Below, piece after piece: positions 9,264-60,337 of a stretch of DNA of 64,000 nucleotides. Location of the stretch: the NCBI RefSeq assembly GCF_015711605.1, contig NZ_JABTEZ010000001.1, positions 1,888,001 through 1,952,000 on the forward strand, given 5' to 3'. The notes under the pieces were generated by a model. It made no database searches. It was not told the origin of the DNA and was given only the letters and a program-made list of their open reading frames with translations. This stretch comes from Planomonospora sp. ID67723. GTDB taxonomy: Bacteria > Actinomycetota > Actinomycetes > Streptosporangiales > Streptosporangiaceae. Both the position numbers and the translations under genes were made by a program. How positions within the stretch are numbered: position 1 is the stretch's first letter; the number at the start of each line of letters is the position of its first letter.

Positions 9264-9283
9264 GCCCTCATCATAGTTATCGT

Positions 9284-11795
<2,512 letters not shown>

Positions 11796-44410: not shown

Positions 44411-44437
44411 TTTGTTCGGATGATAGCTAAACTAATT
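44411..44437. promoter_or_regulatory. 27-bp sugar-regulon element, copy 1 (GH42/GH95 divergent spacer)
   Basis: TTTGTT at 44411-44416, 13 bases, AACTAATT at 44430-44437. It fills most of the 40-base spacer and ends four bases before the GH95 ATG, so a bound protein would block both promoters. Confidence 0.65.
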
Positions 44438-44441
44438 ATCC

Positions 44442-46712
44442 ATGGACCATGGATTCGTCTCAAGGGATGCCGCCGGGGACTGGGAACGGGCGCTGATCAC
44501 CGGCAACGGTCGCCAGGGCGCTCTCGTGTACGGCGGGCCGGAGGCGTCCGGCGGGTCCGGCGATCTCCGGGTGACCCTCTCCCACGAACGCCTGTTCCTG
44601 CCGGTCGCCGAGCCGCTGGCGCCCCCGCACACCGCCCCCGTCCTGCCGGAGCTGCGCGCCCTGCTGTACGGCGGGCGCCCGCGCGAGGCGGCCGGGCGGG
44701 TCGTGGAACTCGCCGCCGGAGAGCACGCCGGCTACGCGGACACCCGCTGGATCGACCCCCTGGTCCCCTCCGCCACCCTGGCCTTCTCCCCGGCCACGCC
44801 GGACGCGGTGCCGGGGGACTACCGCAGGAGCTGCGACTTCGCCACCGGTCTGGTGACGCAGCAGTGGGGCCGGGCCCGGCAGGAGGTGTTCGTCTCCCGT
44901 CCGGCCGACGCGGTGGTGATCCGCTTCTCGGGGGCCGGGGGGCTGCTGAGCCTGGCCCCGATCGGGGAGGAGCCGCCGGTTCCCGTCCGGTTCACCGTGG
45001 ATGCCGGTCCCGGCCGGCTGACGCTGGAGGCGGGGTTCTCCGCGCGGTGGCCGGGGGCGGCCGGGGGATACACGGTCGAGTGCCGGGTCTCCGGGGCCGC
45101 CGAGCCGTCGGCCGGCGGCCTGGTGATCGAGGGCGAGGCGACCGTCCTCGCCAGGACGGTGGTCCACGGCAGCCGGCCGCGCCCGATCGAGGAGATCCCC
45201 GGCGGCTTCGACCTCCTGCTCCGCGAGCACGCGGCCGTCCACGGCGACCTGTTCGCCCGCTCGTCGGTCCGCCTCGGCCGCCGTGCGGAGAACCCCGCCT
45301 CCGGCGTCAGCCGGCCGGAAGGAGAGGCCGGGGCGAGGGTCGAGCGGCTGTTCCGGGCGGGGCGGTACGCGGTGATCTCCAGCTCGGGGGAGCTGCCCCC
45401 GACCCTGCAGGGGGTGTGGAGCGGGACGTACGACCCGCCCTGGCGCAGCGGGTTCACCATGGACGGCAACCTGGCCTCGGCGGTCGCGGGGCTGGCGGCC
45501 ACCGGGACGCCGGAGCTCATGCTCCCGGTGTTCGACCTGGCGGAGGGCCTGATGGAGGACTTCAGGCAGAACGCCCGCAGGCTGTACGGCTGCCGCGGGA
45601 TCCTGGTCCCCGCCCACCTGTCGACGCACGGTCTGCACAACCACTTCGGCCCGGTCTGGTGCCTGACCTTCTGGACGGCGGGGGCGGGCTGGCTGGCCAG
45701 GCTCTACCACGACCACTACGCCCACACCGGCGACCTGGCCTTCCTGCGGGAGCGGGCCTGGCCGTTCATGACCGAGGCGGCCCTGTTCTACGAGGACTTC
45801 CTCACCGCGAGCGGCGACTTCGCGCCGTCCTACTCGCCGGAGAACACCCCCTCGGGGGGCGACTCCCAGGCGTGCGTCAACGCGACCATGGACGTCGCGG
45901 TCGCCCGGGACCTGCTGCGCAACCTCGTCCACGCCGGGGAGCGCCTCGGCCTCGGCCACGCCAGGTGGCAGCGGCTCCTGGACCGCCTCCCCGGCTACCG
46001 GATCGCGCCGGGCGGGGAACTGGCCGAGTGGATCGGCGCGAGGGACTCCGCGGCGGACGGCGCCCGGGGCCCCGCGGCGGGGAGCCCCGTGGCGGACAAC
46101 CACGCCCACCGGCACGCCTCGCACCTCTACCCGCTCTGGTACGAGCGGGATCCCGCCTTCGACGATCCGCGGCTGGCGGCGGCGGCCGTCCTCGCGGTCC
46201 GGCGGCGGCTGGCGTGGTGGCGGGGGTCCGACAGCGACGAGATGGCGTTCGGGCTGGTGCAGCTCGGCCTGGCGGCGGCGGCGCTCGGGCTGGCGGAGGA
46301 GGCGCACGAGGCGCTCACGCTGCTGGCCACCCGGTACTGGCGCGAGGAGAACCTGGTCTCCACCCACAACCGGGACGCGATCTTCAACGTGGACGTCTGC
46401 GGAGGGCTGCCCGCGCTGGTGGCCGCCATGCTCGTCCGCTCCTCGCTGCCGCCCTCCGGCTACGGCCGGGTCGACCTGCTGCCCGCCCGCCCGCGCGCGT
46501 GGCCGTCCGGCGAGGCGCGCGGGCTGACCGTGCGCGGCGGGACGGTCGAGCGCCTGACCTGGGAGCCCGGCCGGGTGGAGGCCGTGGTGACGGCCTGGGC
46601 TCCGCTGCTGGTCGTCTGCGGTTCCCAGCGGGCCCGGGTGCTCCCCGGCGAGACGCTGCCATTGACGTTTGTTGGTTTGGACGCAAAACTAATTCAGGAA
46701 CTGGAAGCCTGA
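44442..46712 (+). CDS. GH95-family glycosidase (alpha-L-fucosidase/alpha-L-galactosidase like)
   Basis: 756 residues: N-terminal beta-sandwich (1-250), helical linker, (alpha/alpha)6 barrel (about 290-640) and a C-terminal beta domain. Family segments: LPPTLQGVWSGTYDPPWRSG, SPENTPSGGDSQACVNATMD with the presumed general-acid Glu, and IFNVDVCGGLPALVAAML at the Asp position. In fucosidase members the first stretch continues with an N-x-N pair; here it reads TMDGNLA, so one Asn is Asp and specificity may differ. No signal peptide. The ATG has no ribosome site and lies just after the operator, so it may be leaderless. Its last 15 codons contain another operator copy. Confidence 0.85.
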   Translation: MDHGFVSRDAAGDWERALITGNGRQGALVYGGPEASGGSGDLRVTLSHERLFLPVAEPLAPPHTAPVLPELRALLYGGRPREAAGRVVELAAGEHAGYADTRWIDPLVPSATLAFSPATPDAVPGDYRRSCDFATGLVTQQWGRARQEVFVSRPADAVVIRFSGAGGLLSLAPIGEEPPVPVRFTVDAGPGRLTLEAGFSARWPGAAGGYTVECRVSGAAEPSAGGLVIEGEATVLARTVVHGSRPRPIEEIPGGFDLLLREHAAVHGDLFARSSVRLGRRAENPASGVSRPEGEAGARVERLFRAGRYAVISSSGELPPTLQGVWSGTYDPPWRSGFTMDGNLASAVAGLAATGTPELMLPVFDLAEGLMEDFRQNARRLYGCRGILVPAHLSTHGLHNHFGPVWCLTFWTAGAGWLARLYHDHYAHTGDLAFLRERAWPFMTEAALFYEDFLTASGDFAPSYSPENTPSGGDSQACVNATMDVAVARDLLRNLVHAGERLGLGHARWQRLLDRLPGYRIAPGGELAEWIGARDSAADGARGPAAGSPVADNHAHRHASHLYPLWYERDPAFDDPRLAAAAVLAVRRRLAWWRGSDSDEMAFGLVQLGLAAAALGLAEEAHEALTLLATRYWREENLVSTHNRDAIFNVDVCGGLPALVAAMLVRSSLPPSGYGRVDLLPARPRAWPSGEARGLTVRGGTVERLTWEPGRVEAVVTAWAPLLVVCGSQRARVLPGETLPLTFVGLDAKLIQELEA
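46668..46694. promoter_or_regulatory. 27-bp sugar-regulon element, copy 2, inside the GH95 3' end
   Basis: TTTGTT at 46668-46673, 13 bases, AACTAATT at 46687-46694. It lies within coding sequence for FVGLDAKLI of GH95 using AT-ending codons that are otherwise rare here. TTGACG at 46662-46667 directly precedes it and may be a -35 box for the GH31-importer operon starting at 46728. Confidence 0.65.
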
Positions 46713-46727
46713 AGCGCTGGAGCACCC

Positions 46728-48995
46728 ATGCCCTACCGTCCCCCTCTGATCGCGCACGAGTACTTCGTCGCCGACCCGCCGGAACTGCCCGTGCGCTCGC
46801 ACGGCGAGGGCGGGCTGTCGGCGTTGACGGCGGCGGAACCGGTGGCGGCCGACGCGGCCGGAGTGACCTTGAAGGCCTCGACCTCCGCCGGGGAGACACT
46901 GGTGGTCCAGGTGAACGCGGCCGGTGAGGGGGTGATCCGGGTACGGCTCGGTCAGGACGCGGACGCGCGGACCCGGTCGGCCCGGGCGATCTCCATGGTC
47001 ACCCCGGGCACGTTCGCCGGGGCGCGGGTTGAGAGCACGCCCGAGGCGTCCGGAACGCCCGGGACGATCGTGGTCGACGCGGGGTCGCTCCGGGCGGAGA
47101 TCACCCTCTCCCCGTGGCACCTGCGCTTCACCGACGCCGCCGGGGGGACCCTGCTGGAGCAGGACCCGGGCCACACCGACATCAGCGGCCGGCTGCGCAC
47201 CCTCCCGTTCGGCCGCTCCCTCGCCGGCGGCGAGGTCGCCGGCTACCACGAGAGCTTCGCCGCTCCCGCCGACGAGGCGTTCACCGGGTTCGGCGAGTCG
47301 TTCACCCCGCTGGACAAGCGCGGCCAGCGGCCGGTCATGTGGAACTTCGACGCCTTCGGCGCCGAGTCCCAGCGCGCCTACAAGAACGTGCCGTTCTACC
47401 TGTCCAGCCGGGGGTACGGCGTGCTGGTCGACAGCGGCACGCCGGTGGAGTTCGACGTCTGCCAGTCCACCCACAGCTGCGTGCAGATCGTCGTCCCGGA
47501 CGACCTGATCGACTACTACGTGATCGCCGGGCCGACCCCGCCGCAGGTGCTCGACCGCTTCGACGAGCTGACCTGCCGCCCGCTGCTCCCGCCGAAGTGG
47601 GCGTTCGGCACCTGGATCTCCTCGGGGTTCTTCGTCGACACCCAGGAGCGGGTGATGAACCGGGCGCGGACCATCCGCGAGCGCGGGATCCCCTGCGACG
47701 TTCTCCACCTGGACACCTACTGGCAGACGGACGGGCACTGGTCCGACCTACGCTGGGACGAGGCGAACTTCCCCGACCCGGCCGGGATGCTGGCGGAGCT
47801 GAAGGAGATGGGCTTCAAGGTCTGCCTCTGGATGAACCCGTACATCTCCCACCTGAGCCCGGCCTTCCCCGCCGCTGCCGAAGCCGGATATTTCCTGAAG
47901 AATCAGGACGGTGAGGTCTACGTCGCCGACTCCTGGCACGGCTCCTACCCGGCCTGCGGCATCGTCGACTTCACCGACCCGGCCGCCGTCGAGTGGTTCC
48001 GGGGGCTGCTGCGCCCACTGCTGGAGCAGGGGGTGCAGATCTTCAAGACCGACTTCGCCGAGGGCGTGCCGCACGACGCGGTCGCGGCCAACGGGATGAC
48101 CGGAACCGACCTGCACAACGTCTACACGCTGCTGTTCAACGACGTGGTCTCCGAGGTGACGCGCGAGGTCGCCGGGCACGGCATGGTCTGGGCACGCTCG
48201 TCGTTCCTCGGCGGCCAGCGGCACGCGGCCCAGTGGAGCGGCGACACCTACACCAGCTACCCCGCGATGGGCAGCACGCTGCGCGGCGGCCTGGCCCACG
48301 GGCTGTCCGGCATCCCGTTCTGGAGCCATGACGCGGGAGGCTTCACCGGCCGCCCCACCGACGACCTGTACGTCCGCTGGACCCAGTTCGGCGCCTTCTC
48401 CCCGCTGCTGCGCCTGCACGGCACCACCAGCCGCGAGCCGTGGGAGTTCCCCGAGGTGGAGGCCGAGGCCGTGGCCGCGCTGAGGCTGCGCTACCGGCTG
48501 ATGCCGTACATCTACACCGCCGCCGTCGAGGCCGCGCGGACCGGGGCGCCGATGATGCGGGCGCTGTGCGTCGACTACCCGGACGACCCGGTCGCCTGGC
48601 GGGCCGACCTGGAGTACCTTCTCGGCCGCGACCTGCTGGTGGCCCCGATGACCTCGCCGGAAGGCACCCGGAGGGTCTACCTGCCGGCCGGTGACTGGGT
48701 GGACCACTGGACCGGCGAGGTGCTCGCGGGCGGGCGCTACGTCACGGTCTCCGCGCCGCTGGAGCGGATCCCGCTGTTCGCACGGCACGGCGCGCTCATC
48801 CCCGTCCTGGCCGAGCCCGGCGACGCCGTGGGCGACGGGCCGTTCGGGGAGATCATCCTGGTCGGCTACGGCACGGAGACCGGGACCGCCCTGATCTCCG
48901 ACGCCGGCGGCGACACCACGGTCACCGTGACCGCGGACGGGATCCGGGCCGACGGTCCCGCGCGCGTCACGCGCGTCGAGCGGGCCGGCCGCTGA
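46728..48995 (+). CDS. GH31 alpha-xylosidase (YicI-like)
   Basis: 755 residues, four-domain GH31 enzyme of the YicI size and layout. The nucleophile Asp442 lies in QIFKTDFAEGVPHDA, close to the FKTDFGE segment of E. coli YicI, and the acid/base Asp506 in AAQWSGDTYTSYPAM. Also seen: WAFGTWISSGFFVDTQERVM and CDVLHLDTYWQTD. Alpha-xylosidases remove terminal alpha-1,6-xylose from xyloglucan oligosaccharides; an alpha-glucosidase role cannot be excluded. No signal peptide. ATG behind GGAG. It heads an apparent operon with a sugar-binding protein and two permeases; the operator-promoter is inside the preceding gene. Confidence 0.9.
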   Translation: MPYRPPLIAHEYFVADPPELPVRSHGEGGLSALTAAEPVAADAAGVTLKASTSAGETLVVQVNAAGEGVIRVRLGQDADARTRSARAISMVTPGTFAGARVESTPEASGTPGTIVVDAGSLRAEITLSPWHLRFTDAAGGTLLEQDPGHTDISGRLRTLPFGRSLAGGEVAGYHESFAAPADEAFTGFGESFTPLDKRGQRPVMWNFDAFGAESQRAYKNVPFYLSSRGYGVLVDSGTPVEFDVCQSTHSCVQIVVPDDLIDYYVIAGPTPPQVLDRFDELTCRPLLPPKWAFGTWISSGFFVDTQERVMNRARTIRERGIPCDVLHLDTYWQTDGHWSDLRWDEANFPDPAGMLAELKEMGFKVCLWMNPYISHLSPAFPAAAEAGYFLKNQDGEVYVADSWHGSYPACGIVDFTDPAAVEWFRGLLRPLLEQGVQIFKTDFAEGVPHDAVAANGMTGTDLHNVYTLLFNDVVSEVTREVAGHGMVWARSSFLGGQRHAAQWSGDTYTSYPAMGSTLRGGLAHGLSGIPFWSHDAGGFTGRPTDDLYVRWTQFGAFSPLLRLHGTTSREPWEFPEVEAEAVAALRLRYRLMPYIYTAAVEAARTGAPMMRALCVDYPDDPVAWRADLEYLLGRDLLVAPMTSPEGTRRVYLPAGDWVDHWTGEVLAGGRYVTVSAPLERIPLFARHGALIPVLAEPGDAVGDGPFGEIILVGYGTETGTALISDAGGDTTVTVTADGIRADGPARVTRVERAGR

Positions 48996-49025
48996 GCCGT
49001 CATCATCCCCCCAGAGGAGAGAGCG

Positions 49026-50339
49026 ATGTTCAAGGTGAGAACCGGCGTGGCCGCGGTGGCCGCGGCGACCATGCTGGCGGCGCTGGCCGCGTGCGGGAGC
49101 ACCGAGCAGGCGGCGGGCGAGCCCGCCGCGGACGGGCCCCGGGTGCTGAAGCTCTGGCACTACGAGAGCGCCGACGGCGCGATGGGCAAGGCCTGGGCCG
49201 AGGCGATCAAGCAGTTCGAGGCCTCGCACCCCGGGGTGAAGGTCCAGTTCGAGGAGAAGGCGTTCGAGCAGATCCGCCAGTCGGCGGGCATGATCCTCAA
49301 CTCGGACGAGGCCCCGGACGTGATGGAGTACAACAAGGGCAACGCCACGGCCGGGCTGCTGTCCAAGCAGGGGCTGCTGACCGACCTGACCCCCGAGGTC
49401 ACCAAGCGGGGCTGGGACAAGCTGCTCAGCCCGTCGCTGCAGACCACGGCGAGGTATGACGAGCGCGGCGTCATGGGCGCCGGCAACTGGTACGGCGTCC
49501 CCAACTATGCCGAGTACGTGATGGTCTACTACAACAAGGACCTGTTCGAAAAGCACAAGGTCGATGTGCCGAAGACGTTCGACGAGTTCACCGCGGCCAT
49601 GGACGCCTTCGTCAAGGCCGGGGTCACCCCGCTCGCGGTCGGCGGCGCCGAGTACCCGGCGCAGCAGATCTTCTACCAGCTCGCCCTGAGCAAGGCGCAG
49701 CGGCCGTGGGTCGACAACTTCCAGCTCTACAAGGGCAAGGTCGACTTCAAGGGGCCGGAGTTCACCTACGCGGCCGAGACCATGGCCGACTGGGTGAAGA
49801 AGGGCTACATCGCCAAGGACTCGGCCGCCATCAAGGCCGAGGACATGGGTGTCTCCTTCATCGGCGGCAAGTATCCGATCGTGGTCACCGGCTCGTGGTG
49901 GTACGGCAGGTTCGCCAGCGAGATCAAGGACTTCGAGTGGGGCTCGTTCCTCTGGCCGGGCAACACCATGAGCGCCGGGTCGAGCGGGAACATCTGGGTG
50001 GTCCCGGAGAACGCCAAGAACAAGGACCTGGCCTACGACTTCATCGACATCACGATGAAGAAGGAGATCCAGAACCTGCTCGGCAACTCCGGCGGCATCC
50101 CGGTGGCCGCGGACGCGTCGGCGATCACCGACCCGAAGAGCAAGGAACTGATCGAGAACTTCAACACGCTCTCGACCGGTGACGGGCTGGCGTTCTACCC
50201 CGACTGGCCCGCGCCGGGCTACTACGACGTGCTGGTGGCCGGGGTTCAGAACCTGATCAACGGCAGCAAGAAGCCCGCCGAGGTGCTCGACGAGATCGCG
50301 GCGCCGTACGAGGAGAACCTCGCCGACATCGGCGACTGA
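49026..50339 (+). CDS. sugar-binding lipoprotein of a CUT1 ABC importer (system 1)
   Basis: 437 residues. Lipoprotein signal MLAALAAC (Cys23), then a family 1 extracellular solute-binding fold: RVLKLWHYESADGAMGKAW, FEEKAFEQIRQSAGMILNSD, GVPNYAEYVMVYYNKDLFEK. Such proteins bind mono- to oligosaccharides. The ATG has GAGGAGAG upstream. It starts 30 bases after GH31 and lies 21 bases before the first permease, so substrate is probably what GH31 and its neighbours cut. No ATPase gene accompanies the system. Confidence 0.92.
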   Translation: MFKVRTGVAAVAAATMLAALAACGSTEQAAGEPAADGPRVLKLWHYESADGAMGKAWAEAIKQFEASHPGVKVQFEEKAFEQIRQSAGMILNSDEAPDVMEYNKGNATAGLLSKQGLLTDLTPEVTKRGWDKLLSPSLQTTARYDERGVMGAGNWYGVPNYAEYVMVYYNKDLFEKHKVDVPKTFDEFTAAMDAFVKAGVTPLAVGGAEYPAQQIFYQLALSKAQRPWVDNFQLYKGKVDFKGPEFTYAAETMADWVKKGYIAKDSAAIKAEDMGVSFIGGKYPIVVTGSWWYGRFASEIKDFEWGSFLWPGNTMSAGSSGNIWVVPENAKNKDLAYDFIDITMKKEIQNLLGNSGGIPVAADASAITDPKSKELIENFNTLSTGDGLAFYPDWPAPGYYDVLVAGVQNLINGSKKPAEVLDEIAAPYEENLADIGD

Positions 50340-50360
50340 GGCGGGACGGGAGACAGACTC

Positions 50361-51296
50361 ATGGCAGTGCACGCTCCGGCCGCGCGGCCGAAGGCGGTCC
50401 GCGAGCCGGAGCCGCGCCCCCGGCGCCGCCGTACCGGTGGCTACTGGGTGTTCCTGCTGCCCAGCGCGGTGCTGTTCACCGTGGTGATCGTGGTGCCGTT
50501 CCTGATGAACATCGGGATCTCCTTCACCCGGTGGCAGGGGATCGGCGACCCGAGATGGCTCGGGATCGACAACTACACGCGGCTGTTCGCCGACGAGCGC
50601 TTCTGGTCGTCGTTCCGCAACAACACCGCGCTGATCGTCGCGATGGCGATCGTGCCCACGATCATCGGGCTGGTTCTCGCCGCGACGCTCTTCGACTACG
50701 TGGGCAAGAGGTTCGGCCCCCGTACGGCGAGCCTGCTGCGGGCCGCCTACTACCTGCCGCAGGTGCTGCCGGTCGCGATCGCCGGCATCGTCTGGGGATG
50801 GATCATGCATCCCCGGTTCGGCGCGCTCAACGCGTTCCTCGGGCTGTTCGGCATGGAGCCGCGCAGCTGGCTCGGCGACCCGGACTGGGCGCTGCCCAGC
50901 GTGATGCTGATCCTGGTGTGGTTCCAGATCGGCTATCCCGTCGTCATCTTCATGGCGGGCCTGCAGCGGGTGGACCCCGCGCTGTACGAGGCCGCGGAGA
51001 TGGACGGGGCCTCGTGGTGGCGGCGGTTCTGGCACATCACGATTCCGCAGATCAGACCGGAGATCTACGTGGTCCTGCTGACCTGCACGATCGCCGCGCT
51101 CAAGGTCTTCGGCCCGATCTTCGTGCTCACCCGGGGCGGCCCCGGCGGGGCCACGCTCGTGCCGTCGTACTTCAGCTACCAGAACTTCTTCGAGAAGGCC
51201 AACGTCGGGTACGGCGCCGCGATCGCCACCGTGCTCACCCTTGTGATCATCGTGGTCACGGTGTTCTTCCTGCGGATTCAGGACAGGGAATCATGA
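50361..51296 (+). CDS. sugar ABC permease, MalF-like (system 1)
   Basis: 311 residues, six membrane helices. The EAA loop that contacts the ATPase is EAAEMDGASWWRRFWHITIP near residue 210. The first helix is YWVFLLPSAVLFTVVIVVPF after an Arg/Pro-rich cytoplasmic N-terminus. It pairs with the next gene; their reading frames overlap by ATGA at 51293-51296. Confidence 0.93.
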   Translation: MAVHAPAARPKAVREPEPRPRRRRTGGYWVFLLPSAVLFTVVIVVPFLMNIGISFTRWQGIGDPRWLGIDNYTRLFADERFWSSFRNNTALIVAMAIVPTIIGLVLAATLFDYVGKRFGPRTASLLRAAYYLPQVLPVAIAGIVWGWIMHPRFGALNAFLGLFGMEPRSWLGDPDWALPSVMLILVWFQIGYPVVIFMAGLQRVDPALYEAAEMDGASWWRRFWHITIPQIRPEIYVVLLTCTIAALKVFGPIFVLTRGGPGGATLVPSYFSYQNFFEKANVGYGAAIATVLTLVIIVVTVFFLRIQDRES

Positions 51297-52108
51297 TCCG
51301 GAAGTACTCGGTCCTGGTCTCGCTGGCCGTGCTGGCCGTCGTGATGCTGGTGCCGTTCGCCATCGTCACGCTCAACGCGGTGCGCTCACCGGAGGACTAC
51401 TCCGCCAACGGGCCGCTGAGCCTGCCCGACGGGCTCTACCTCGACGGCATCATCGAGTTCTGGAACCGCGTCGACTTCGGCGGGAAGCTGTGGAACAGCC
51501 TGCTGATCAGCGCCTCGGTGGCGGTGCTGGCGGTGGTGCTCTCGGTGCTGAACGCCTACGCGCTCGGCGTCGGCCGGGTGCGGGGCCGTACCTGGATCAT
51601 GGTCGTCTTCCTGGTGGCCAACACGCTGCCGCAGGAGGCGCTGGTCTACCCGCTGTACTACCTGGCCAAGGAGGTCGGCCTCTACGACACCCGGCTCGGG
51701 GTGATCATCATCTTCACGGTCATCCAGAGCGCGTTCGGGACCTACCTGCTCGCCTCGGTGCTCGGCCGGTTCCCGCACGAGATCCTGGAGGCGGCCGCGA
51801 TCGACGGGGCGGGGAAGTGGCGGGCGCTGTGGCGGATCGTGGTCCCGGTCAGCCGTCCGACCCTTTCGGTGCTGCTCATCTTCTTCTTCATCTGGACCTG
51901 GAACGAGTTCTTCCTCCCCCTGGTCTTCCTCATCTCCAACGAGAACCAGACCGTGCCCGTCGCGCTGGGCGTGCTCCAGGGCGACAAGATGATGGACGCG
52001 ACCATGTCGAGCGCCTCGGCGCTGCTCGGCGTGCTCCCGGCCGTCGTCTTCTTCCTGATCTTCCAGCGCACCCTCACCCGCGGCGTGACCGTGGGCGCGA
52101 TCAAGTGA
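51293..52108 (+). CDS. sugar ABC permease, MalG-like (system 1)
   Basis: 271 residues, six membrane helices. EAA loop: EAAAIDGAGKWRALWRIVVP. Starts at ATG 51293 (MIRKYSVLVSLAVLAVVMLV), overlapping the previous stop by four bases; the longer upstream frame is a shadow of that permease. No ATPase gene follows, so the pair probably uses a shared MsiK-type ATPase encoded elsewhere, as in Streptomyces cellobiose and maltose import. Confidence 0.93.
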   Translation: MIRKYSVLVSLAVLAVVMLVPFAIVTLNAVRSPEDYSANGPLSLPDGLYLDGIIEFWNRVDFGGKLWNSLLISASVAVLAVVLSVLNAYALGVGRVRGRTWIMVVFLVANTLPQEALVYPLYYLAKEVGLYDTRLGVIIIFTVIQSAFGTYLLASVLGRFPHEILEAAAIDGAGKWRALWRIVVPVSRPTLSVLLIFFFIWTWNEFFLPLVFLISNENQTVPVALGVLQGDKMMDATMSSASALLGVLPAVVFFLIFQRTLTRGVTVGAIK

Positions 52109-52120
52109 ACCCCCGGCCGT

Positions 52121-52150
52121 GGTCCGGCCCGGGACGTGACCGGCCGGACC
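52121..52150 (+). terminator. hairpin ending the GH31-importer operon
   Basis: GGTCCGGCC at 52121-52129 pairs perfectly with GGCCGGACC at 52142-52150. It starts 12 bases after the last permease. No T-tract. It separates that operon from the secreted GH3 gene, which has its own operator. Confidence 0.5.
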
Positions 52151-52202
52151 GGCCCGGTGACCGGAGCCCGTCCGCAGCTCGGGGGCGGACGACGCCCCGT
52201 CA

Positions 52203-52216
52203 TCGAAGCGCTTCGA
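52203..52216. promoter_or_regulatory. LacI-type operator before the secreted GH3 gene
   Basis: Perfect 14-bp palindrome TCGAAGCGCTTCGA, 19 bases before the GTG start and just upstream of the ribosome site. CG-centred palindromes of this kind are classic LacI-family sites. The same sequence occurs twice before the second GH3 gene. Confidence 0.7.
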
Positions 52217-52235
52217 CCCCTGACCTGGAGGCGCA

Positions 52236-52283
52236 GTGTCCCCACGCATGTCCTCACGCATGTCCTCACGCATGTCCCCGCGC
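52236..52283 (+). repeat. four in-frame 12-bp repeats at the GH3 start codon
   Basis: Units at 52236, 52248, 52260 and 52272: GTGTCCCCACGC, ATGTCCTCACGC, ATGTCCTCACGC, ATGTCCCCGCGC. They encode MSPR-MSSR-MSSR-MSPR. Each unit begins with a possible start codon, so slippage would only lengthen or shorten the basic n-region of the signal peptide. Confidence 0.85.
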
Positions 52284-55229
52284 ACGCCCCTGCGCGTGTC
52301 ACGGCTGTCCCCGTCCAGACCCGCCGCGGCGGCGGCCGTGTTCGCGCTGGCTCTCGGCCTGTGCGCCGCCCCGGCGCACGCGGAGGCCGACCACCCCTTC
52401 CGCGACCCCTCGCTCCCGCTCCAGCAGCGGATCGACGACCTGCTCGGCCGGCTGACCCTGGAGGAGAAGGTCTCCTGGCTCCACCAGTACCAGCCCGCCG
52501 TGGACCGGCTGGGCATCGGGCTGTTCAAGACCGGCACCGAGGCGCTGCACGGCGTCGCCTGGTCCACCGACGTCGACAACGGCGGAAACGTCGTCACCGC
52601 CCAGGGCACGGTCTTCCCGCAGGCCGTCGGCCTGGCCAGCACCTGGAACCCGGACCTCGTCAGGAAGGTCGGCTCCGCCGTCGGCGACGAGGCCCGCGGC
52701 TACCACTCCGAGAACCCCCGCGTGTGGGGCCTTCAGTTGTGGGCGCCCGTGGTCAACCTGCTGCGCGACCCGCGCTGGGGCCGCAACGAGGAGGGCTACT
52801 CCGAGGACCCGCTGCTCACCGGCGCCATCTCCACGGCGTACGGCCGGGGCATCCAGGGCGACGACCCCGACCACCTCAAGGCCGCCCCGGTGCTCAAGCA
52901 CTACATGGCCAACAACAACGAGGTCCGCCGGGACACCACCAACTCCAGCCTGCGGCCCAGGGTCATGAACGAGTACGAGATCCCGGCGTTCAAGGCCGCG
53001 ATCTCGGCCGACGCCGCCACCGGCGTGATGACCTCCTACAACCTCGTCAACGGCCGGCCGGCCACGGTCACCGACCTCGACTCCAGCGTGCGCAGGTGGA
53101 CCGACCGGACGCTGTTCAACGTCTCCGACGCCAACGGCCCGAACAACCTGACCGCCTCGCAGAAGTACTTCGCCACCCAGCCCGAGGCCGCCGCCGCGAT
53201 GATCAAGGCGGGGGTGGACAGCTTCACCGTCGACAACACCGACGGCGGCCCGACCGTCGCCTCGGTCAACGCCGCGCTGGCGCAGGGGCTGATCACCGAG
53301 AAGGACATCGACCGGACGGTGGGCAACATCCTCGGCGTGCGGTTCCGGCTCGGCGAGTTCGACCCGGACGGCGGGCCGTACGGGAAGATCACCAAGTCGG
53401 TGGTCGACAGTCCCGAGCACCGCAGGCTCAACCGGCAGGCCGCCACCGAGGCGATGGTCCTGCTCAAGAACGGCGGCCGGACCCTGCCGCTGGAGGCGTC
53501 GAAGAAGGTCGCGGTGGTCGGCCCGCTGGCCAGGACCCTCTACACCGACTGGTATTCCGGCAAGCTGCCCTACCAGGTCACCCCGCTCGACGGGATCAAG
53601 GAGCGCGCCGCGGCCACGGTCGCGACCGAGGGCGCCGACCGGATCGCGCTCAAGGCCGGCGGCAGGTACATCACCGCCGGGACGGGCCCGGGCGGAGACC
53701 TGAGGCTCTCGGGGACCACGGCGGGGGAGGCCGAGCAGTTCGACGTCTTCGACTGGGGCGAGGGCGTCGTGACGCTGCGCAGCGTCGCCAACGGCAAGTA
53801 CGTCAGCCGCGCCAACTGGTCCACCCTGGCCAACACCCAGGACCAGCCCACGGGCTGGTTCGTGCAGGAGCAGTTCACGCTGGAGGCCCAGGCCGACGGG
53901 TCCACACTGCTGCGCTACGCCGGATACGAGACCGCCGAGTCGTGGTTCGGCCCGAACGTCTACGTCAGGGCCGCCGCCGACGGCGCGCTCTCGCTCACCA
54001 CCGCGGAGAACGCCACCCGCTTCACCAAGGAGACCGTGCGCAGCGGGATCGACGAGGCCGTCGCGGCGGCAAAGAACGCCGACGCGGCGGTGGTCGTGGT
54101 CGGCAGCATGCCGTTCATCAACGGCCGCGAGGCCCACGACCGCACGGACCTGGACCTCGCCGAGGGCCAGGAGGCCCTGGTCGAGGCCGTGCACGCGGCC
54201 AACCCCAACACCGTGGTGGTCCTGGAGAACAGCTACCCGACGACGATCGACCGCCTGGCGGAGAAGGTCCCGGCGATCCTGTGGACCACCCACGCCGGAG
54301 CCGAGACCGGTCACGCCCTCGCCGACGTGCTGTACGGCGCGGCCAACCCGGCCGGTCGCCTCACCCAGACCTGGCCCCGCGCCGGGACCGAGCTCCCCGA
54401 CATCCTCGACTACGACATCATCAAGACCGGCTCGACCTACCTGTACTCCGAGGACAAGCCGCTGTACGCCTTCGGCCACGGCCTGAGCTACACCACCTTC
54501 GGCTACCAGGGGCTGCGCGCCACACCGCGCGGCGACGGCTTCGAGGTGAAGGTGAAGGTGACCAACACCGGCTCCCGCGCCGGTGACGAGGTCGTGCAGC
54601 TCTACACCCGCCAGCACTCCTCCCGGGTGGAGCAGCCGCTCAGGCAACTGCGCGGGTTCGAGCGGGTGCACCTGGCGCCGGGCGAGTCGAAGGCCGTGAC
54701 GTTCACGCTCAAGAAGGCCGACCTGGCGCTGTGGGACGTGACCCGGGGCCGCTTCGCGGTCGAGGCGTCCGCCCACGACGTGCTCGTCGGCTCGGCCTCC
54801 GACCGCATCCACCAGCGCACGACGATCCGGGTCGGCGGCGAGCGCATCCCCGACCGCGACCTGACCAGGGCCACCCGGGCGGCCGACTTCGACGACTACG
54901 CCGGCATCGAGCTGGTCGACGAGACCAAGGCGGCAGGGGACGCCGTCGAGGCGGCCTCCGGCGAGTGGATCGCGTTCTCCGGCGCGGACCTCGGCCGGGG
55001 CGTCACCGGGATCACTCTGGGCGTCGCCGCGAGCGCCGCCTCGTCGGTGGAGGTCCGCCTCGGATCCCCGACCGGCAGGCTCCTGGGCGCGGTCGCGGTG
55101 CCCGCCACCGGCGGGATCTACCGGTGGAGTACGGCCACCGCCCCGCTCGCCCGGGTCTCCGGCAGGCACGACGTCTACCTGGTCGCCAGGGGCGATCTAC
55201 GGATCAAGGACCTGATCCTGACCCGCTAG
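52236..55229 (+). CDS. secreted GH3 beta-glycosidase with inserted beta-trefoil and C-terminal CBM6-like domain
   Basis: 997 residues. A long signal peptide ends APAHA near 49. GH3 barrel (about 55-375) with nucleophile Asp298 in FNVSDANG and substrate segments DPRWGRNEEGYSEDP and LKHYMANNNE. The alpha/beta sandwich domain (400-750) is interrupted by about 135 residues (467-600: RITAG-like repeats ALKAGGRYITAG, SVANGKYVSR, TLLRYAGYET) that look like a fascin/ricin-type beta-trefoil. A fibronectin-like domain (about 760-860) and a CBM6-like domain (about 870-997) follow. The GTG start has GGAGG upstream. It probably releases glucose (or xylose) from oligosaccharides outside the cell. Confidence 0.9.
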   Translation: MSPRMSSRMSSRMSPRTPLRVSRLSPSRPAAAAAVFALALGLCAAPAHAEADHPFRDPSLPLQQRIDDLLGRLTLEEKVSWLHQYQPAVDRLGIGLFKTGTEALHGVAWSTDVDNGGNVVTAQGTVFPQAVGLASTWNPDLVRKVGSAVGDEARGYHSENPRVWGLQLWAPVVNLLRDPRWGRNEEGYSEDPLLTGAISTAYGRGIQGDDPDHLKAAPVLKHYMANNNEVRRDTTNSSLRPRVMNEYEIPAFKAAISADAATGVMTSYNLVNGRPATVTDLDSSVRRWTDRTLFNVSDANGPNNLTASQKYFATQPEAAAAMIKAGVDSFTVDNTDGGPTVASVNAALAQGLITEKDIDRTVGNILGVRFRLGEFDPDGGPYGKITKSVVDSPEHRRLNRQAATEAMVLLKNGGRTLPLEASKKVAVVGPLARTLYTDWYSGKLPYQVTPLDGIKERAAATVATEGADRIALKAGGRYITAGTGPGGDLRLSGTTAGEAEQFDVFDWGEGVVTLRSVANGKYVSRANWSTLANTQDQPTGWFVQEQFTLEAQADGSTLLRYAGYETAESWFGPNVYVRAAADGALSLTTAENATRFTKETVRSGIDEAVAAAKNADAAVVVVGSMPFINGREAHDRTDLDLAEGQEALVEAVHAANPNTVVVLENSYPTTIDRLAEKVPAILWTTHAGAETGHALADVLYGAANPAGRLTQTWPRAGTELPDILDYDIIKTGSTYLYSEDKPLYAFGHGLSYTTFGYQGLRATPRGDGFEVKVKVTNTGSRAGDEVVQLYTRQHSSRVEQPLRQLRGFERVHLAPGESKAVTFTLKKADLALWDVTRGRFAVEASAHDVLVGSASDRIHQRTTIRVGGERIPDRDLTRATRAADFDDYAGIELVDETKAAGDAVEAASGEWIAFSGADLGRGVTGITLGVAASAASSVEVRLGSPTGRLLGAVAVPATGGIYRWSTATAPLARVSGRHDVYLVARGDLRIKDLILTR

Positions 55230-55279
55230 CCCGGCTCCGGCGCGGTTCCGCCGCAGCCGGCGCTCCCGTGGTTCGTCCC

Positions 55280-55319
55280 GTACGGCCCGCGCCTCCCGTC
55301 CGCGAGGCGCGGGCCGTAC
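55280..55319 (+). terminator. terminator of the secreted GH3 gene
   Basis: A perfect 16-bp stem (55280-55295 with 55304-55319, left arm GTACGGCCCGCGCCTC) and an eight-base loop, 50 bases after the stop. Confidence 0.75.
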
Positions 55320-55414
55320 CCGTTCCTGCGCCCGGAGCCCGAGCAGGGCGGACCCCGGGCCGCATGAGCCGGGCGTGCGTGTGAAGGTCCCCGCGGGCGT
55401 CGCACCTTCTGGCC

Positions 55415-55443
55415 TTGCATTCTCAGCGGAAGGAACTTATAAA
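55415..55443 (+). promoter_or_regulatory. housekeeping-type promoter of hsp20
   Basis: TTGCAT at 55415-55420, 17 bases, TATAAA at 55438-55443, about 70 bases before the hsp20 ATG. It is unusually close to consensus for this genome. No HspR (HAIR) or HrcA (CIRCE) element is obvious around it. Confidence 0.6.
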
Positions 55444-55511
55444 TGAAGTAGGAGGTTTTCTGGAAGGAAGGGCAGAGGTAGTCTGCCTGGATCAACGGAG
55501 GTGGTTCACCG

Positions 55512-55964
55512 ATGCTGCTGACGTCGATCGACCCGTTCGTGCAGGAGTTCGACCGTCAGTTCGACCGGATCGCGCGTCAGACCCTCGGCTGGGGCGACGG
55601 CGGTGCGCGCGCGGGCGGGGCCATGGCTCTGGACGGCGTGCGCCGCAAGGACGACGTCCTTCTCAAGTTCGACCTTCCGGGCATCGACCCCGACTCCATC
55701 GAGGTCACCGTCGACCGCGGAGTCCTCTCGGTGAGCGCCCGGCGCGAGGAGGAGCAGGGGGAGGACGACCGCATGTTCGTGCGGGAGCGTCCGATGGGCA
55801 CCTTCACCCGCCGCGTCTACCTGTCGGAGCACCTCGACAGCGAGAAGATCGACGCCGCCTACTCCAACGGCGTGCTCGCGGTCCGCATCCCGGTGATCGA
55901 GAAGGCGAAGCCGCGCAAGATCGAGATTCAGCGGGCCGAACAGCACAAGTCCATCAAGGCCTGA
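55512..55964 (+). CDS. Hsp20 / alpha-crystallin small heat-shock protein
   Basis: 150 residues. An N-terminal arm (1-40: SIDPFVQEFDRQFDRIARQT) is followed by an alpha-crystallin domain (about 42-135: DVLLKFDLPGIDPDSIEVTV, GVLSVSARREEE, GTFTRRVYLSEHLDSEKIDA) with the conserved ANGVL-like motif YSNGVLAVRIPV, and a short tail with the IxI-type KIEIQ. It acts as an ATP-independent holdase forming oligomers. Ribosome site GGAGGTGG is near-perfect. A MerR-type gene follows, probably its regulator. It is unrelated to the sugar genes on both sides. Confidence 0.94.
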   Translation: MLLTSIDPFVQEFDRQFDRIARQTLGWGDGGARAGGAMALDGVRRKDDVLLKFDLPGIDPDSIEVTVDRGVLSVSARREEEQGEDDRMFVRERPMGTFTRRVYLSEHLDSEKIDAAYSNGVLAVRIPVIEKAKPRKIEIQRAEQHKSIKA

Positions 55965-56157
55965 CGGATACGAGACGGGGGTGGGCGCTGGGTTTCCGGC
56001 GCCCACCTCGGCGTCTTCGGAGGTCTCCGGGCCTCTCGGGGGTCGTGGCGAGGCTCCGCGGACCCTCCTGCACGTCCGGGGACCGTACGGGACGCGGGGG
56101 GTTCTCACAGGGCATGATCAGATGGGCCTTCGGGGCCCTTCACGGAGAGGAGCGGGG

Positions 56158-56466
56158 ATGGTCCGGCTGCCGTTCGACGACGAGCACGCGCCGCTGTACT
56201 CCGTGGGACAGGTGGCCGACATGCTCCAGGTCCAGCAGGCGTTCCTGCGCCGCCTCGACGAGCACGACGTGGTCCGCCCGTCCCGTTCGACCGGTGGCCA
56301 GCGCCGCTACAGCCGCCACGAGATCGGCGCCGTGCAGAGCGCGATCCAGCTCGTCGGCGAGGGCATGACCCTGGCCGCCGTGCGCCGGATCTTCGAGTTG
56401 CAGCAGCAGGTCCGCGAGCTGCAGGCCGAGCTCGCCCGCGAACGCGCCGACCGGAAGACCTCCTGA
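56158..56466 (+). CDS. MerR-family (HspR-like) regulator
   Basis: 102 residues. The HTH-wing unit is APLYSVGQVADMLQVQQAFL then RRLDEHDVVRPSRSTGGQRR YSRHEI. After it comes a short coiled coil (LQQQVRELQAELARERADRK). Size and sequence are like HspR-type MerR proteins that repress chaperone genes in actinomycetes. ATG 56158 follows GGAGAGGAGCGGGG; the frame is open further upstream but without protein character. The gap of 193 bases after hsp20 has no clear terminator, so cotranscription is possible. Confidence 0.85.
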   Translation: MVRLPFDDEHAPLYSVGQVADMLQVQQAFLRRLDEHDVVRPSRSTGGQRRYSRHEIGAVQSAIQLVGEGMTLAAVRRIFELQQQVRELQAELARERADRKTS

Positions 56467-56527
56467 CCCGGCACCATCAGCCGGAGCGGGGACACCGTGA
56501 CGCCGGGCGCGCGGGCCGCCGGAGGGG

Positions 56528-57427
56528 TCAGCCCTTGACGGCGCCGATGATGACGCCCTTGGTGAAGTGGCGCTGGACGAACGGGTAGACGAACAGCACC
56601 GGCAGCAGCGCGACCACCACGATGGCCATCTGGATGGCCAGGCTGGGCGGGAGGGCCTGGCCGCCGATCGTGGAGACGCTGCTCTGCCCGACGATCAGCG
56701 CCTGCCCCTGGAGGACGTACTGGCGGAGCACCACCTGCAGCGGCCACTTGGCGCTGTCGTTCAGGTAGAGCACGGCGTTGAAGAACGAGTTCCAGTAACC
56801 GACCGCGTAGAACAGGCCGATGACCGCGACGACCCCCTTCGACATGGGAAGCACGATCTTCCACAGGATGCGGAACTCGCTCGCGCCGTCGATGCGCGCG
56901 CTGTCGGAGACCTCCTCGGGGATGTTCATGAAGAAGGCCCGCATGACCACGAGGTTGAACGCGGTGACCGCGCCCGGCAGGATCAGCGCCCAGTACGAGT
57001 CGGTCAGTCCCAGCGAGCTGATCAGCAGGTAGCTGGGGATCATCCCGGGGCCGAACAGGAAGGTCAGCAGGACGAGGAAGAGCATCGGCCGGTGCAGCAG
57101 CGAGCCCGGCCGGGACAGGCCGTAGGCGGCCAGCACCGTGACGCTCAGGCTGATCGCGGTGCCGACGGCGGTCACGCCGAGGCTGACCATGACCGACCGG
57201 GTCACCACCCCGCCGCTGAAGAGCTCCGCGTAGGCGGCGAAGGAGAGCTCACCGGGCACGGTGACGAGCCCGCCCGCCGCCGTCACGGTCTCCTGGGTGG
57301 AGAGGCTGGTCAGCACGACCATGTAGATCGGGAAGAGCACCGAGAGTGCGATGAGTGTGAGGATGATGCCCTTGAGGAGGGCGCCGACGCGGCTCGGCCG
57401 CTCGGCCCAGGCGGGTGTGGTCGTCAT
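56528..57427 (-). CDS. sugar ABC permease, LplC/MalG-like (system 2)
   Basis: 299 residues, six membrane helices. EAA loop: DSARIDGASEFRILWKIVLP near residue 195; MTTTPAWAERPSRVGALLKG is the N-terminus. Its ATG at 57427 overlaps the stop of the previous permease by ATGA. No ATPase gene follows on this strand; the next gene is the opposite-strand MerR. Confidence 0.93.
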   Translation of the reverse strand: MTTTPAWAERPSRVGALLKGIILTLIALSVLFPIYMVVLTSLSTQETVTAAGGLVTVPGELSFAAYAELFSGGVVTRSVMVSLGVTAVGTAISLSVTVLAAYGLSRPGSLLHRPMLFLVLLTFLFGPGMIPSYLLISSLGLTDSYWALILPGAVTAFNLVVMRAFFMNIPEEVSDSARIDGASEFRILWKIVLPMSKGVVAVIGLFYAVGYWNSFFNAVLYLNDSAKWPLQVVLRQYVLQGQALIVGQSSVSTIGGQALPPSLAIQMAIVVVALLPVLFVYPFVQRHFTKGVIIGAVKG

Positions 57428-58446
57428 GATTTCTTGTAGATTCCCTGCTCGCCGAACCTGTGGGCGACCTTGTTCGCTATGAGGATGAGGACCAGGCCCA
57501 CCAGGCCCTTGACCAGGCCCGCCGCGGCGCCGTAGCTCCACTCCCCGGTCAGCAGCGTGCGCCAGTAGACGAAGGTGTCGAGCACCTCGGCCGCGTCCCG
57601 GCCGACCGCGTCGCGCTGCAGGAAGAACTGCTCGAAACCGACGTTCAGCGCCTCGCCCAGCCGGAGGATGAGCAGCAGGATGATGACCGGGCGCAGGCCC
57701 GGGAGCGTGATGTGCCACATCCGCCGCCATCGGCCCGCGCCGTCCACCGCCGCCGCCTCGTAGAGGTTCGGGTTGATCGCGGCCAGCGCGGCCAGGAAGA
57801 TGATCGTCCCCCAGCCGGCGTCCTTCCAGACCGTCTCGGCCGTCACCAGCGCGATGAACGCGTCGGGGTTGGTCATGATGTCGATGCCCTTGTGGCCGTT
57901 CTCCCGCAGGGTCTGCGAGATCAGCCCGGAGCCGCCGAACATCTGCTGGAAGAGCGTGACCACCAGCACCCAGGAGAAGAAGTGCGGCATGTAGACGATG
58001 CCCTGGATGAACAGGCGCAGCCGGGGCCGCACCACGCTGTCGAGCAGGATGGCCAGCATGATCGGGATAGGGAAGTAGAAGACCAGCTGGAAGACGGTGA
58101 TCGACAGGGTGTTGAGCGTGGCGTCCCAGAAGCTCTCGTCCAGCAGCAGCCACTGGAAGTTGGACAGGCCCACCCAGGGGCTGTCCTTGATTCCCACGTA
58201 GGGCGAGTAGTCCTGGAAGGCGATGACGTTGCCGAGCAGCGGCACGTAGTGGAAGACCAGCAGCAGGCCGATCGCCGGGACCGTCATCAGCAGCAGCTGC
58301 CAGTCGCGCCTCAGGCGGGCTCCCAGCGAGGGCCGGGAGACCGGCCGGGTCTTTTCATCGGCCTTGCTACCCTTTGCGGGAGCGCCGGCGCCGGCGGGTG
58401 AGGTCAGGTCACCCGCCGGTCCGGTGTTCACGGTGTCGTTAAGCAC
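57424..58446 (-). CDS. sugar ABC permease, LplB/MalF-like (system 2)
   Basis: 340 residues with a cytoplasmic N-terminal 45 residues and six helices. WQLLLMTVPAIGLLLVFHYV begins the membrane part, NVIAFQDYSPYVGIKDSPWV is the LplB-type loop, and the EAA loop is EAAAVDGAGRWRRMWHITLP. The GTG start at 58446 overlaps the binding-protein stop by eight bases; GTG 58431 is an alternative. Confidence 0.92.
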   Translation of the reverse strand: MLNDTVNTGPAGDLTSPAGAGAPAKGSKADEKTRPVSRPSLGARLRRDWQLLLMTVPAIGLLLVFHYVPLLGNVIAFQDYSPYVGIKDSPWVGLSNFQWLLLDESFWDATLNTLSITVFQLVFYFPIPIMLAILLDSVVRPRLRLFIQGIVYMPHFFSWVLVVTLFQQMFGGSGLISQTLRENGHKGIDIMTNPDAFIALVTAETVWKDAGWGTIIFLAALAAINPNLYEAAAVDGAGRWRRMWHITLPGLRPVIILLLILRLGEALNVGFEQFFLQRDAVGRDAAEVLDTFVYWRTLLTGEWSYGAAAGLVKGLVGLVLILIANKVAHRFGEQGIYKKS

Positions 58447-60133
58447 GGCCGTTGTCCTGCAGGACCTTCATGTAGAAGTCGCGGGCCTCGTTCCCGCCGT
58501 CCCGCTGCCACTCGGCGACGATCTGCTTGGCGTCGCTGACGGGGCGCCGGCCGCGCATGATGTCGGTGAACTTGTCCTCGGTCGGCACCTGCAGGCCGGA
58601 CATCTTCGAGGGCTTCTGGACCCGGATCCCGTCGAAGGGGGCCTTCTCCAGGTGGGGGAAGCTGGCGTTCTGCCAGTCCACGTTGAGCTTGACCGCGTCG
58701 GGATAGGGCCAGTCGACGTAGAGCGGGCGCCCGCCGAGGAAGCCGTAGGTGAAGGCGACCTCCTTGCGGCCCAGGTCGGTGAGCTCGGGGATGCCGCCGG
58801 AGCCCCGGTTGAAGTGCCTGCCCTCCACGCCGTAGTTGGACAGCTCGTACTCCTTGGTCCCGAACGGCGCCGCGCACCAGTTGAGGATGGAGAGGATCTC
58901 CTCCACCTTCTCCTTGGGCAGGCCCTTCTTGACGAAGGTGAACAGGCCCGCCGCGGTGCCGTGGTACATCAACGGCGTGCCGCCGTCGTGGGCGAAGACG
59001 GGGAAGGCGTTCATGGCGAAGCCGGGGTTCTTGCCCCGGTGCTGCTGGAGCAGTTCCTTCCAGCCGCCGAGGCCGTCGCGGTAGATGAGGATCTGCCCGG
59101 ACGCCATGAGATCCTTCTCGTTGGCGCCCTTGCTGCCGACGACCTCCGGGTGGACGAGCTCGGCCTTGAAGACCTTCTGCATGAAGGCCAGCATCAGCTC
59201 GAACTCCGGCGTCTCGTACTTGTGCACGAGCTTGCCGCCCTCGTAGCGCCACTCCTGCGGGATGCGGAAGGTCGGCCACATCATCTCGTGGATGCTGCCG
59301 AACGCCCAGCGCTTGGCCTTGGCGTCGGTGATCTCCTTGCCGAGCTCGAAGAGCTCGTCGGCGGTCTTGGGATTGGTGTTCCAGCCGTTCTCGTCGAACA
59401 GGTCCTTGCGGTAGAGCAGCGCGAAGGGATAGGGCTCGGTGGGGAACGGCACCGCCATCAGCTTGTTGTTCCAGACCGACCACTGCCAGGCGGCGGTCGG
59501 CAGGTTGGCCAGCAGCGGGTACGGCTTGACCTTGTCGCCCTGCAGGTAGGGGGTGAGGTCCTCGAAGGCCTTGTCGACGGCGGTGTTGAAGTCCGCCATC
59601 TTCTCGATCTCCCAGCTCGGGATGCACATGATGTCCGGCAGGTCGCCGGAGGCGAGCCGGGCGATGGCCTTGTCGGCGTAGACCGTACCGTCGGTGATCT
59701 GGAACTGCACGGTCGCGCCGATGTCGGCGTTGGCGGCCTGGAAGTAGGAATTGTCGTCCAGGCCGGGCGGGAGCGGGCCCCACAGCGGGGTCATCGCGGT
59801 GTAGGTGCCGCCCTTGCCGGCCTTCTGGGCGAGCGCCGCGACGGGAGTGGCGGGATACTTGGTGAAGCCGCCGCTGACGTCCGGCACGCCCGGCAGGGTG
59901 GAGACGGTGCCGGGCAGGTCCGGCTTGATGCCAGGGAACGCGGTGTAGGTCGGGGTCAGGGACGTCAGCTTCTCGGCGGCGGCGGCCGTGGCGCCGCCGC
60001 TGCCGGGGCGGGGGCCGCTGGGGGTGGAGCAGGCGCTGAGCAGGCCGCCGCTCGCGGCGGCGAGCGTGCTGAGTCCGACCAGGCCGAGGAAGCCCCGGCG
60101 GCTGGTGGTCGCGCCCTCGGGGGAATTGTTCAC
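58439..60133 (-). CDS. large sugar-binding lipoprotein, LplA type, Tat-like signal (system 2)
   Basis: 564 residues, larger than the usual 430, as in LplA/YtcQ-like proteins that bind long or branched oligosaccharides. The signal combines a twin-arginine segment SRRGFLGLVG (residues 11-20) with a lipobox GGLLSAC (Cys35). Binding-fold segments include SGDLPDIMCIPSWEIEKM, YPFALLYRKDLFDENGWN and AAGLFTFVKKGLPKEKVEEI. The GTG at 60133 has GAAGGGAA upstream. The 27-bp element lies 60 bases before it, and the ROK regulator gene is divergent, so it is probably the first gene of a ROK-controlled operon. Confidence 0.92.
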   Translation of the reverse strand: MNNSPEGATTSRRGFLGLVGLSTLAAASGGLLSACSTPSGPRPGSGGATAAAAEKLTSLTPTYTAFPGIKPDLPGTVSTLPGVPDVSGGFTKYPATPVAALAQKAGKGGTYTAMTPLWGPLPPGLDDNSYFQAANADIGATVQFQITDGTVYADKAIARLASGDLPDIMCIPSWEIEKMADFNTAVDKAFEDLTPYLQGDKVKPYPLLANLPTAAWQWSVWNNKLMAVPFPTEPYPFALLYRKDLFDENGWNTNPKTADELFELGKEITDAKAKRWAFGSIHEMMWPTFRIPQEWRYEGGKLVHKYETPEFELMLAFMQKVFKAELVHPEVVGSKGANEKDLMASGQILIYRDGLGGWKELLQQHRGKNPGFAMNAFPVFAHDGGTPLMYHGTAAGLFTFVKKGLPKEKVEEILSILNWCAAPFGTKEYELSNYGVEGRHFNRGSGGIPELTDLGRKEVAFTYGFLGGRPLYVDWPYPDAVKLNVDWQNASFPHLEKAPFDGIRVQKPSKMSGLQVPTEDKFTDIMRGRRPVSDAKQIVAEWQRDGGNEARDFYMKVLQDNGRA

Positions 60134-60192
60134 GGCGCGTTCCCTTCGTAGGTCATGGATCGGGGGTGTCGGTGAAGGACAGGTCGCGATAG

Positions 60193-60219
60193 AGTTAGTT
60201 CGTCTTTCGACCAAACAAA
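60193..60219 (-). promoter_or_regulatory. 27-bp sugar-regulon element, copy 3 (importer 2 / ROK divergent spacer)
   Basis: Read on the minus strand: TTTGTT (60219-60214), 13 bases, AACTAACT (60200-60193). Same spacing as the two other copies. Here the outer bases make it a better inverted repeat (AATTTGTT against AACTAACT). From memory it resembles xylose-repressor (XylR, a ROK protein) operators of bacilli. Confidence 0.7.
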
Positions 60220-60337
60220 TTAGTCGAGGGCGACTCCCGCCACAAGGGCTCGGCGATCGCGGACCCGGGGGCGGGTGGGGCATGATGGGGCCAGCCGGGG
60301 GCGTCCACGGACATCACCTGGGCCGATCAGGACGGGA

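Follow-up and report, generated by a model that had tools for sequence, protein, structure and literature searches.

The XylR proteins of Anaerocellum bescii, Thermotoga and bacilli are ROK-family repressors, and their sites overlap promoter elements or 5' UTRs, as expected of a repressor (PMC8579813). Purified A. bescii XylR binds a xylA operator, TTAGTT-N13-AACTAA, and a second tested A. bescii site keeps the spacing with both half-sites altered (PMC12285236). in vitro, T. maritima XylR responds to xylose and, when roughly tenfold more is supplied, to glucose as well (PMC3750489); the XylR operators of Paenibacillus (PMC9104551) and of some clostridia (PMC2873477) differ. RokB of S. coelicolor, also a ROK protein, has a mapped site at novH, TTTGTTC-N11-GAACAAA, that is, TTTGTT-N13-AACAAA (PMC4856308); the five RokB sites of the S. 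coelicolor genome itself are organised differently and point to amino-acid metabolism. As for xyloglucan, the locus of Ruminiclostridium cellulolyticum encodes Gal42A, Xyl31A and Glu3A with an ABC importer (PMC8576529) and is governed by an activating two-component system, XygS/XygR; the alpha-xyloside locus of Caldicellulosiruptor (Anaerocellum) bescii combines a GH31 enzyme with an ABC importer (PMC8579813, PMC12710961), with predicted control by AxuRS and XylQ of the AraC family.

The locus described here lies in a window of 64,000 nucleotides of Planomonospora sp. ID67723, the whole stretch of DNA that was analysed. It shares the GH42, GH31 and GH3 families and an ABC importer with the R. 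cellulolyticum locus, but carries a ROK operator instead of XygS/XygR control and has GH95 in addition; the likeness to C. bescii lies in GH31 and the ABC importer, not in the regulators. The geometry of the A. bescii xylA operator matches that of three sites in the window, as does that of the novH site, but where XylR acts on xylAB or xylan genes, the targets in the window encode transporters and enzymes of xyloglucan type. Among the papers listed by our literature search, none described a ROK regulator of an actinomycete xyloglucan locus. We consider it very probable that the repeated element is the operator of the adjacent ROK-family repressor, which would control genes for xyloglucan-type import and breakdown and be released by a sugar.

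A sequence-only reading of the window had described a 27-bp element, TTTGTT-N13-AACTAAYT, in three copies with the same 13-base gap. The window scan places exact copies at 44411-44437 (+), 46668-46694 (+) and 60193-60219 (-), and the genome scan which that reading proposed (8,336,304 bases) agrees, finding three exact matches, every one in the window; the reversed control pattern has none in the whole genome. The scatter of matches over unrelated genes that was to count against a regulon is not seen in this genome. With up to three mismatches the window holds five matches, two of which are opposite-strand readings of two of the three copies, against 0.09 expected by chance. The letters and the spacing of the two-box word thus stand, but not its asymmetry: the element is a 25-bp inverted repeat, TTWGTT-N13-AACWAA, whose exact places in the genome are again just the three copies (Table 1). 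Allowing one mismatch in the repeat adds four genomic places, and the reversed control likewise yields four, so that this class on its own is at background and context is required. On inspection, one of the four lies 5' of a GH74 gene (C2:652972) and one 5' of a GH46 chitosanase gene, and nothing is evident in the short stretches around the other two (C2:994289, C5:702088). The chitosanase site, TTTGTTAGGAAGGTTTCCTAACGAA (L093:8126-8150; G000:C2:116125), has an inner palindrome of its own and is likely to be the operator of another ROK, presumably of the CsnR type.

Table 1. Operators, predicted promoter elements and genes of the locus (window coordinates)
Feature	Position	Strand	Remarks
GH42 beta-galactosidase	42542..44401	-	PF02449, E 3e-137
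Operator 1	44411..44435	n/a	25-bp palindrome (27 bp in the first reading), with the divergent GH42 and GH95 starts on either side
GH95 (alpha-L-fucosidase family)	44442..46712	+	PF22124, E 5e-60
Predicted GH31 promoter, -35 TTGACG	46662..46667	+	abuts operator 2
Operator 2	46668..46692	n/a	within 3' end of GH95 reading frame, 35 bp 5' of GH31 start
Predicted GH31 promoter, -10 AAAACT	46685..46690	+	inside operator 2
GH31, probable alpha-xylosidase (YicI-like)	46728..48995	+	KTDFAE stretch, family models
ABC transporter solute-binding protein 1	49026..50339	+	PF13416
ABC permease (transporter 1)	50361..51296	+	PF00528
ABC permease (transporter 1)	51293..52108	+	PF00528
GH3 with CBM6 (beta-glucosidase/xylosidase type)	52236..55229	+	family models
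ABC permease (second transporter)	56528..57430	-	PF00528
ABC permease (second transporter)	57424..58446	-	PF00528
Probable solute-binding protein 2	58439..60133	-	GTG start at 60133
Operator 3	60195..60219	n/a	between divergent probable solute-binding-protein gene and ROK gene
Predicted solute-binding-protein promoter, -10 TAATTT	60217..60222	-	overlaps operator 3 edge
Predicted solute-binding-protein promoter, -35 TTGTGG	60240..60245	-	TTGTG in 20 of 22 picked regions
ROK-family transcriptional regulator, presumed repressor	60275..61549	+	PF00480, E 7e-53, and helix-turn-helix matches

By family, the set to be expected of a xyloglucan utilization regulon, a beta-galactosidase, an alpha-xylosidase, a beta-glucosidase and an importer of oligosaccharides, is present: GH42, GH31, GH3 and two ABC systems. 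GH31 scores 578 bits against the NCBIfam alpha-xylosidase model, under the cut-off of 606, and its best matches among solved structures are YicI chains. GH95 could serve fucose side chains. Its start codon follows a few bases after operator 1 (44411-44442), with no evident ribosome-binding site, and its transcript is possibly leaderless. The NCBIfam solute-binding models fall far under their cut-offs for probable solute-binding protein 2, and a Pfam search with it gave no match. Operator 1 has counterparts in a relative of the same genus (G001) and in G045, G087 and G016, and operator 3 bears out the earlier statement that one copy adjoins the ROK gene.

The locus also contains a LacI-type palindrome, TCGAAGCGCTTCGA, before two GH3 genes, at 52203-52216, 61689-61702 and 61726-61739. 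It occurs exactly three times in the genome, always in this ROK/GH3 locus, and a LacI gene follows the second GH3 (L095:4611-5630), of which protein the palindrome is, judged from the DNA, likely to be the own operator. The GH3 with CBM6 may also respond to the copy 5' of its gene. Among the 80 named ROK loci described below (best 80 of 322), 56 have the core of TCGAAGCGCTTCGA 1.1-1.7 kb past the ROK start.

How the operator sits relative to promoters was compared in upstream regions of relatives. In 31 GH31 upstream regions (28 distinct sequences) picked for holding a site, TTGACG or TTGACC stands immediately 5' of the operator in 29 and CAAACT or AAAACT at 17-nt spacing in all 31; the distance from operator to GH31 start is 33-39 bp in 30 of them and 58 bp in one. 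The operator thus occupies the spacer of the predicted GH31 promoter and overlies its -10. At the solute-binding-protein gene, 20 of 22 picked regions have TTGTG, which TAATTT or TAGTTT follows after 17 nt in 17 of the 20 and one base later in the other three. Since the operator is placed differently with respect to these two separate predicted promoters, it is not itself a promoter; since it lies over or at promoter elements at both genes, polymerase should be obstructed by whatever protein occupies it, and repression would be steric.

Operator 2 has a further peculiarity. It is not intergenic but lies within the last codons of GH95 (stop at 46712), the last residues of which are encoded by the predicted GH31 promoter-operator. 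The view that each copy precedes a different transcription unit must therefore be adjusted for copy 2, which is inside GH95 and has its own predicted promoter. The operator and its -35 are within GH95 in six genomes where GH95 is followed by GH31. The alignment of these, a small sample of six genomes, shows no variation at 22 of 25 operator bases and at 7 of 7 flanking bases, compared with 262 of 353 columns further upstream; of the third codon positions, 7 of 8 are invariant within the operator and 64 of 117 upstream of it. Four other genomes (G122, G006, G266 and G294) have no GH95 between two sites, which are separated by 77, 54, 16 and 16 bp respectively, the outer site of G006 being counted with one mismatch. 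The G122 gap seems, by eye, to retain the first bases of the GH95 frame, and this remnant suggests that GH95 was lost there.

Conservation was examined beside orthologues of the ROK gene, in a named set comprising the best 80 of 322 relatives of the protein. In 73 of these 80 loci the 400 bp upstream of ROK include an exact site, and in one more a site with one mismatch; the other 684,188 bases of the 80 loci contain no exact site. The set (best 80 of 322) includes Micromonospora and Phytohabitans, outside the Streptosporangiaceae to which the nearest relatives belong. In the seven of the 80 that have no exact site the helix-turn-helix is nearly unchanged; a changed recognition helix, which might have been expected in them, was rejected, the helix being identical. 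In the 4-kb flanks of six of these seven, homologues of the transporter genes of the window are missing, as they are from some site-bearing named loci. A homologue of solute-binding protein 2 is found in 54 of the named 80 (best 80 of 322).

In a survey of 297 genomes of the family, using the pattern with trailing YT and defining a close ROK orthologue by a best match below 1e-119, the motif is present in 127 and the reversed control in 5. Of the 109 genomes that have a close ROK orthologue 101 carry it, versus 26 of 188 others (Fisher p 4e-44, a statistic that ignores kinship). Twenty motif-positive relatives together have 47 exact places, against 2 for the reversed control; by hand count 44 of the 47 are within 28 kb of the ROK orthologue, and the remaining three lie 5' of a GH74 gene (L133), 5' of an LPMO_10 gene (L134) and, without explanation, at G023:C45. 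At the LPMO_10 gene, in G190, the exact site is at L134:10042-10066, with a GGGAGCGCTCCC palindrome between. In loci of relatives that were fetched because they bear a site, and so inform on position and not on frequency, the site is seen in the gap that separates ROK from the binding-protein gene and again immediately ahead of GH31, where the genes upstream vary. Among the fetched loci, those of one genus (g47) have the site, yet the nearest ROK gene there is about 50% identical to that of the window. One genome, G057, has two ROK genes (L062:4204-5400 and 8743-9960), 50% and 58% identical to the window's, flanking a GH3 gene of this locus. Uniqueness in the genome, presence at 73 of the 80 named ROK loci (best 80 of 322) and co-occurrence with the close orthologue (101 of 109 versus 26 of 188) lend strong support to the ROK regulon that had been proposed.

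The protein itself has a ROK domain (PF00480, 180.4 bits, cut-off 22.9) and an N-terminal helix-turn-helix at residues 46-88 (PF12802 and PF09339 above cut-offs), and matches Mlc and NagC-like chains over nearly full length; it is expected to bind operators at the target promoters. Many orthologues align with it just from residues 13-20 on, so its true start may be about 60 bp further downstream. Among solved structures, XylR 4ija matches it weakly (E 2.5e-14) and ranks behind the Mlc and NagC-like chains. In a tree of 31 of 33 ROK rows, two having been left out as too short, the window protein groups with its orthologues; because several deep branches are open and one row (G024_x) is mistranslated, the tree was not used for the relation to XylR. 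The ROK proteins of G043 and G041 (L050, L101) have no cysteine-rich CxCGxxGCxE stretch; the other nine aligned proteins have one.

The relation to XylR appears more directly in three relatives (G007, G050 and G072), where the same operator word stands between xylB, for xylulokinase, and a ROK gene whose product is 48-50% identical to the window ROK; xylA, for xylose isomerase, was checked beside xylB in two of the three. The helix-turn-helix is nearly the same, GLTKSTVSSLV in the proteins beside xylB versus GLNKATVSSLV. These copies and the A. bescii TTAGTT-N13-AACTAA site give substance to the resemblance to xylose-repressor operators that the first reading had pointed out. Linkage to xylAB, as a mark of XylR, is found just for these related ROK proteins and not for that of the window. 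The xylA gene of the same genome lies elsewhere, divergent from a different ROK (37% identity), with a palindrome, TTAAGTCCATTAAGTGGATTAA, between them (L092, about 7646-7668; G000:C1:1104691). We therefore regard the window ROK as working like a XylR, without filing it as one.

The one-mismatch site at C2:652972 precedes a gene for a GH74 xyloglucanase with CBM2, at a distance of about 130 bp from its presumed start. It has counterparts in the same genus and in Planobispora-like relatives. Exact sites occur in G016, 5' of GH74, and in G052, where the site is at the 5' end of the GH74 frame as called. A scan of 800 bp around the start at 30 of 40 GH74 places found an exact site in 1 of the 30, a site with up to one mismatch in 6 and one with up to two in 11, the background at these tolerances being 0, 1 and 5 sites in 100,298 bases; GH74 is thus a clear target just in near relatives (6 of 30, at most one mismatch). 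GH74 itself is present in 38 of 40 picked motif-positive versus 5 of 40 picked motif-negative genomes, or, in well-assembled genomes alone, in 37 of 39 versus 3 of 33. The targets GH42, GH95, GH31 and the two ABC transporters, with the GH74 site, point to a xyloglucan regulon.

Three other accounts of the element have to be weighed. It might be the operator of another regulator, either another of the genome's ROK proteins or the LacI-type protein encoded after the next GH3, and this seems to us very unlikely. The outer half-site is common to other ROK proteins, RokB among them (PMC4856308), and the LacI gene is in the same locus; but the motif co-occurs with this ROK clade and adjoins its gene, TCGAAGCGCTTCGA, whose three genomic copies are all in this locus, is likely to be the LacI gene's own operator, and the ROK beside xylA has the different palindrome TTAAGTCCATTAAGTGGATTAA in front. 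We give even less credence to the element being a promoter, its boxes forming a -35/-10 pair, perhaps for an alternative sigma factor. The half-sites at GH95 do stand roughly at -35 and -10 positions, with the ATG right after, but at GH31 the element falls between -35 and -10 and over the -10, and at the transporter gene it lies at or beyond the -10; moreover its outer arms mirror each other, and its conservation extends to places where it separates divergent genes. That AT-rich words have been repeated by chance is scarcely credible: there are just three copies in the window, but the number expected at up to three mismatches is given above, and the position is conserved in many genera.

The operator of the adjacent ROK repressor thus remains our preferred reading. 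Counting against it are the seven of the 80 named ROK loci (best 80 of 322) that have no exact site although their helix-turn-helix is nearly unchanged, the 26 genomes with the motif but no close ROK orthologue, the outer half-site common to ROK proteins, through which another ROK of this genome could bind, the departures of the second A. bescii site and of other XylR operators, the restriction of clear GH74 sites to near relatives and the background number of one-mismatch places. The working of such an operator can be sketched. Without inducer a ROK dimer would occupy TTWGTT-N13-AACWAA at the three places and obstruct RNA polymerase at the GH42 and GH95 promoters, at the promoter that GH31 shares with ABC transporter 1 and at the one serving ABC transporter 2; the divergent rok gene would likewise be repressed from operator 3. 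A xyloglucan breakdown product entering the cell would bind the ROK domain and release the repressor, allowing expression of genes to import and dismantle fucosylated and galactosylated xyloglucan oligosaccharides, and the fourth, slightly divergent site would bring the secreted GH74 xyloglucanase, encoded elsewhere in the genome, under the same control. A xylosyl signal, as first suggested, is plausible; we infer that the inducer is xylose, isoprimeverose or a xylogluco-oligosaccharide, and the enzyme activities likewise. A more speculative extension, towards which we are rather doubtful, is that this ROK clade branched off from XylR, retaining its operator while the signal became a xyloglucan-specific alpha-xyloside such as isoprimeverose, with the xylose pathway of the genome under a second ROK that has a different operator. 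On the same view the C-terminal coding end of GH95 would, in this lineage, be overprinted on the promoter and operator of GH31, the same DNA thus encoding protein and acting as a repressor site.

As a predicted ROK-controlled regulon of xyloglucan type the assignment is well supported, and the kind of system is one already known. For actinomycetes of the Streptosporangiaceae, and for outliers in the Micromonosporaceae, it would tie the use of xyloglucan to a specific regulator, its site and a set of genes; in the comparable loci of R. cellulolyticum and A. bescii this role falls to a two-component system and, by prediction, to AraC-family proteins. It also offers a case of a predicted promoter-operator within a coding end, and the related ROK clades, with one operator word, are a natural comparison for the evolutionary separation of sugar signal from DNA target.
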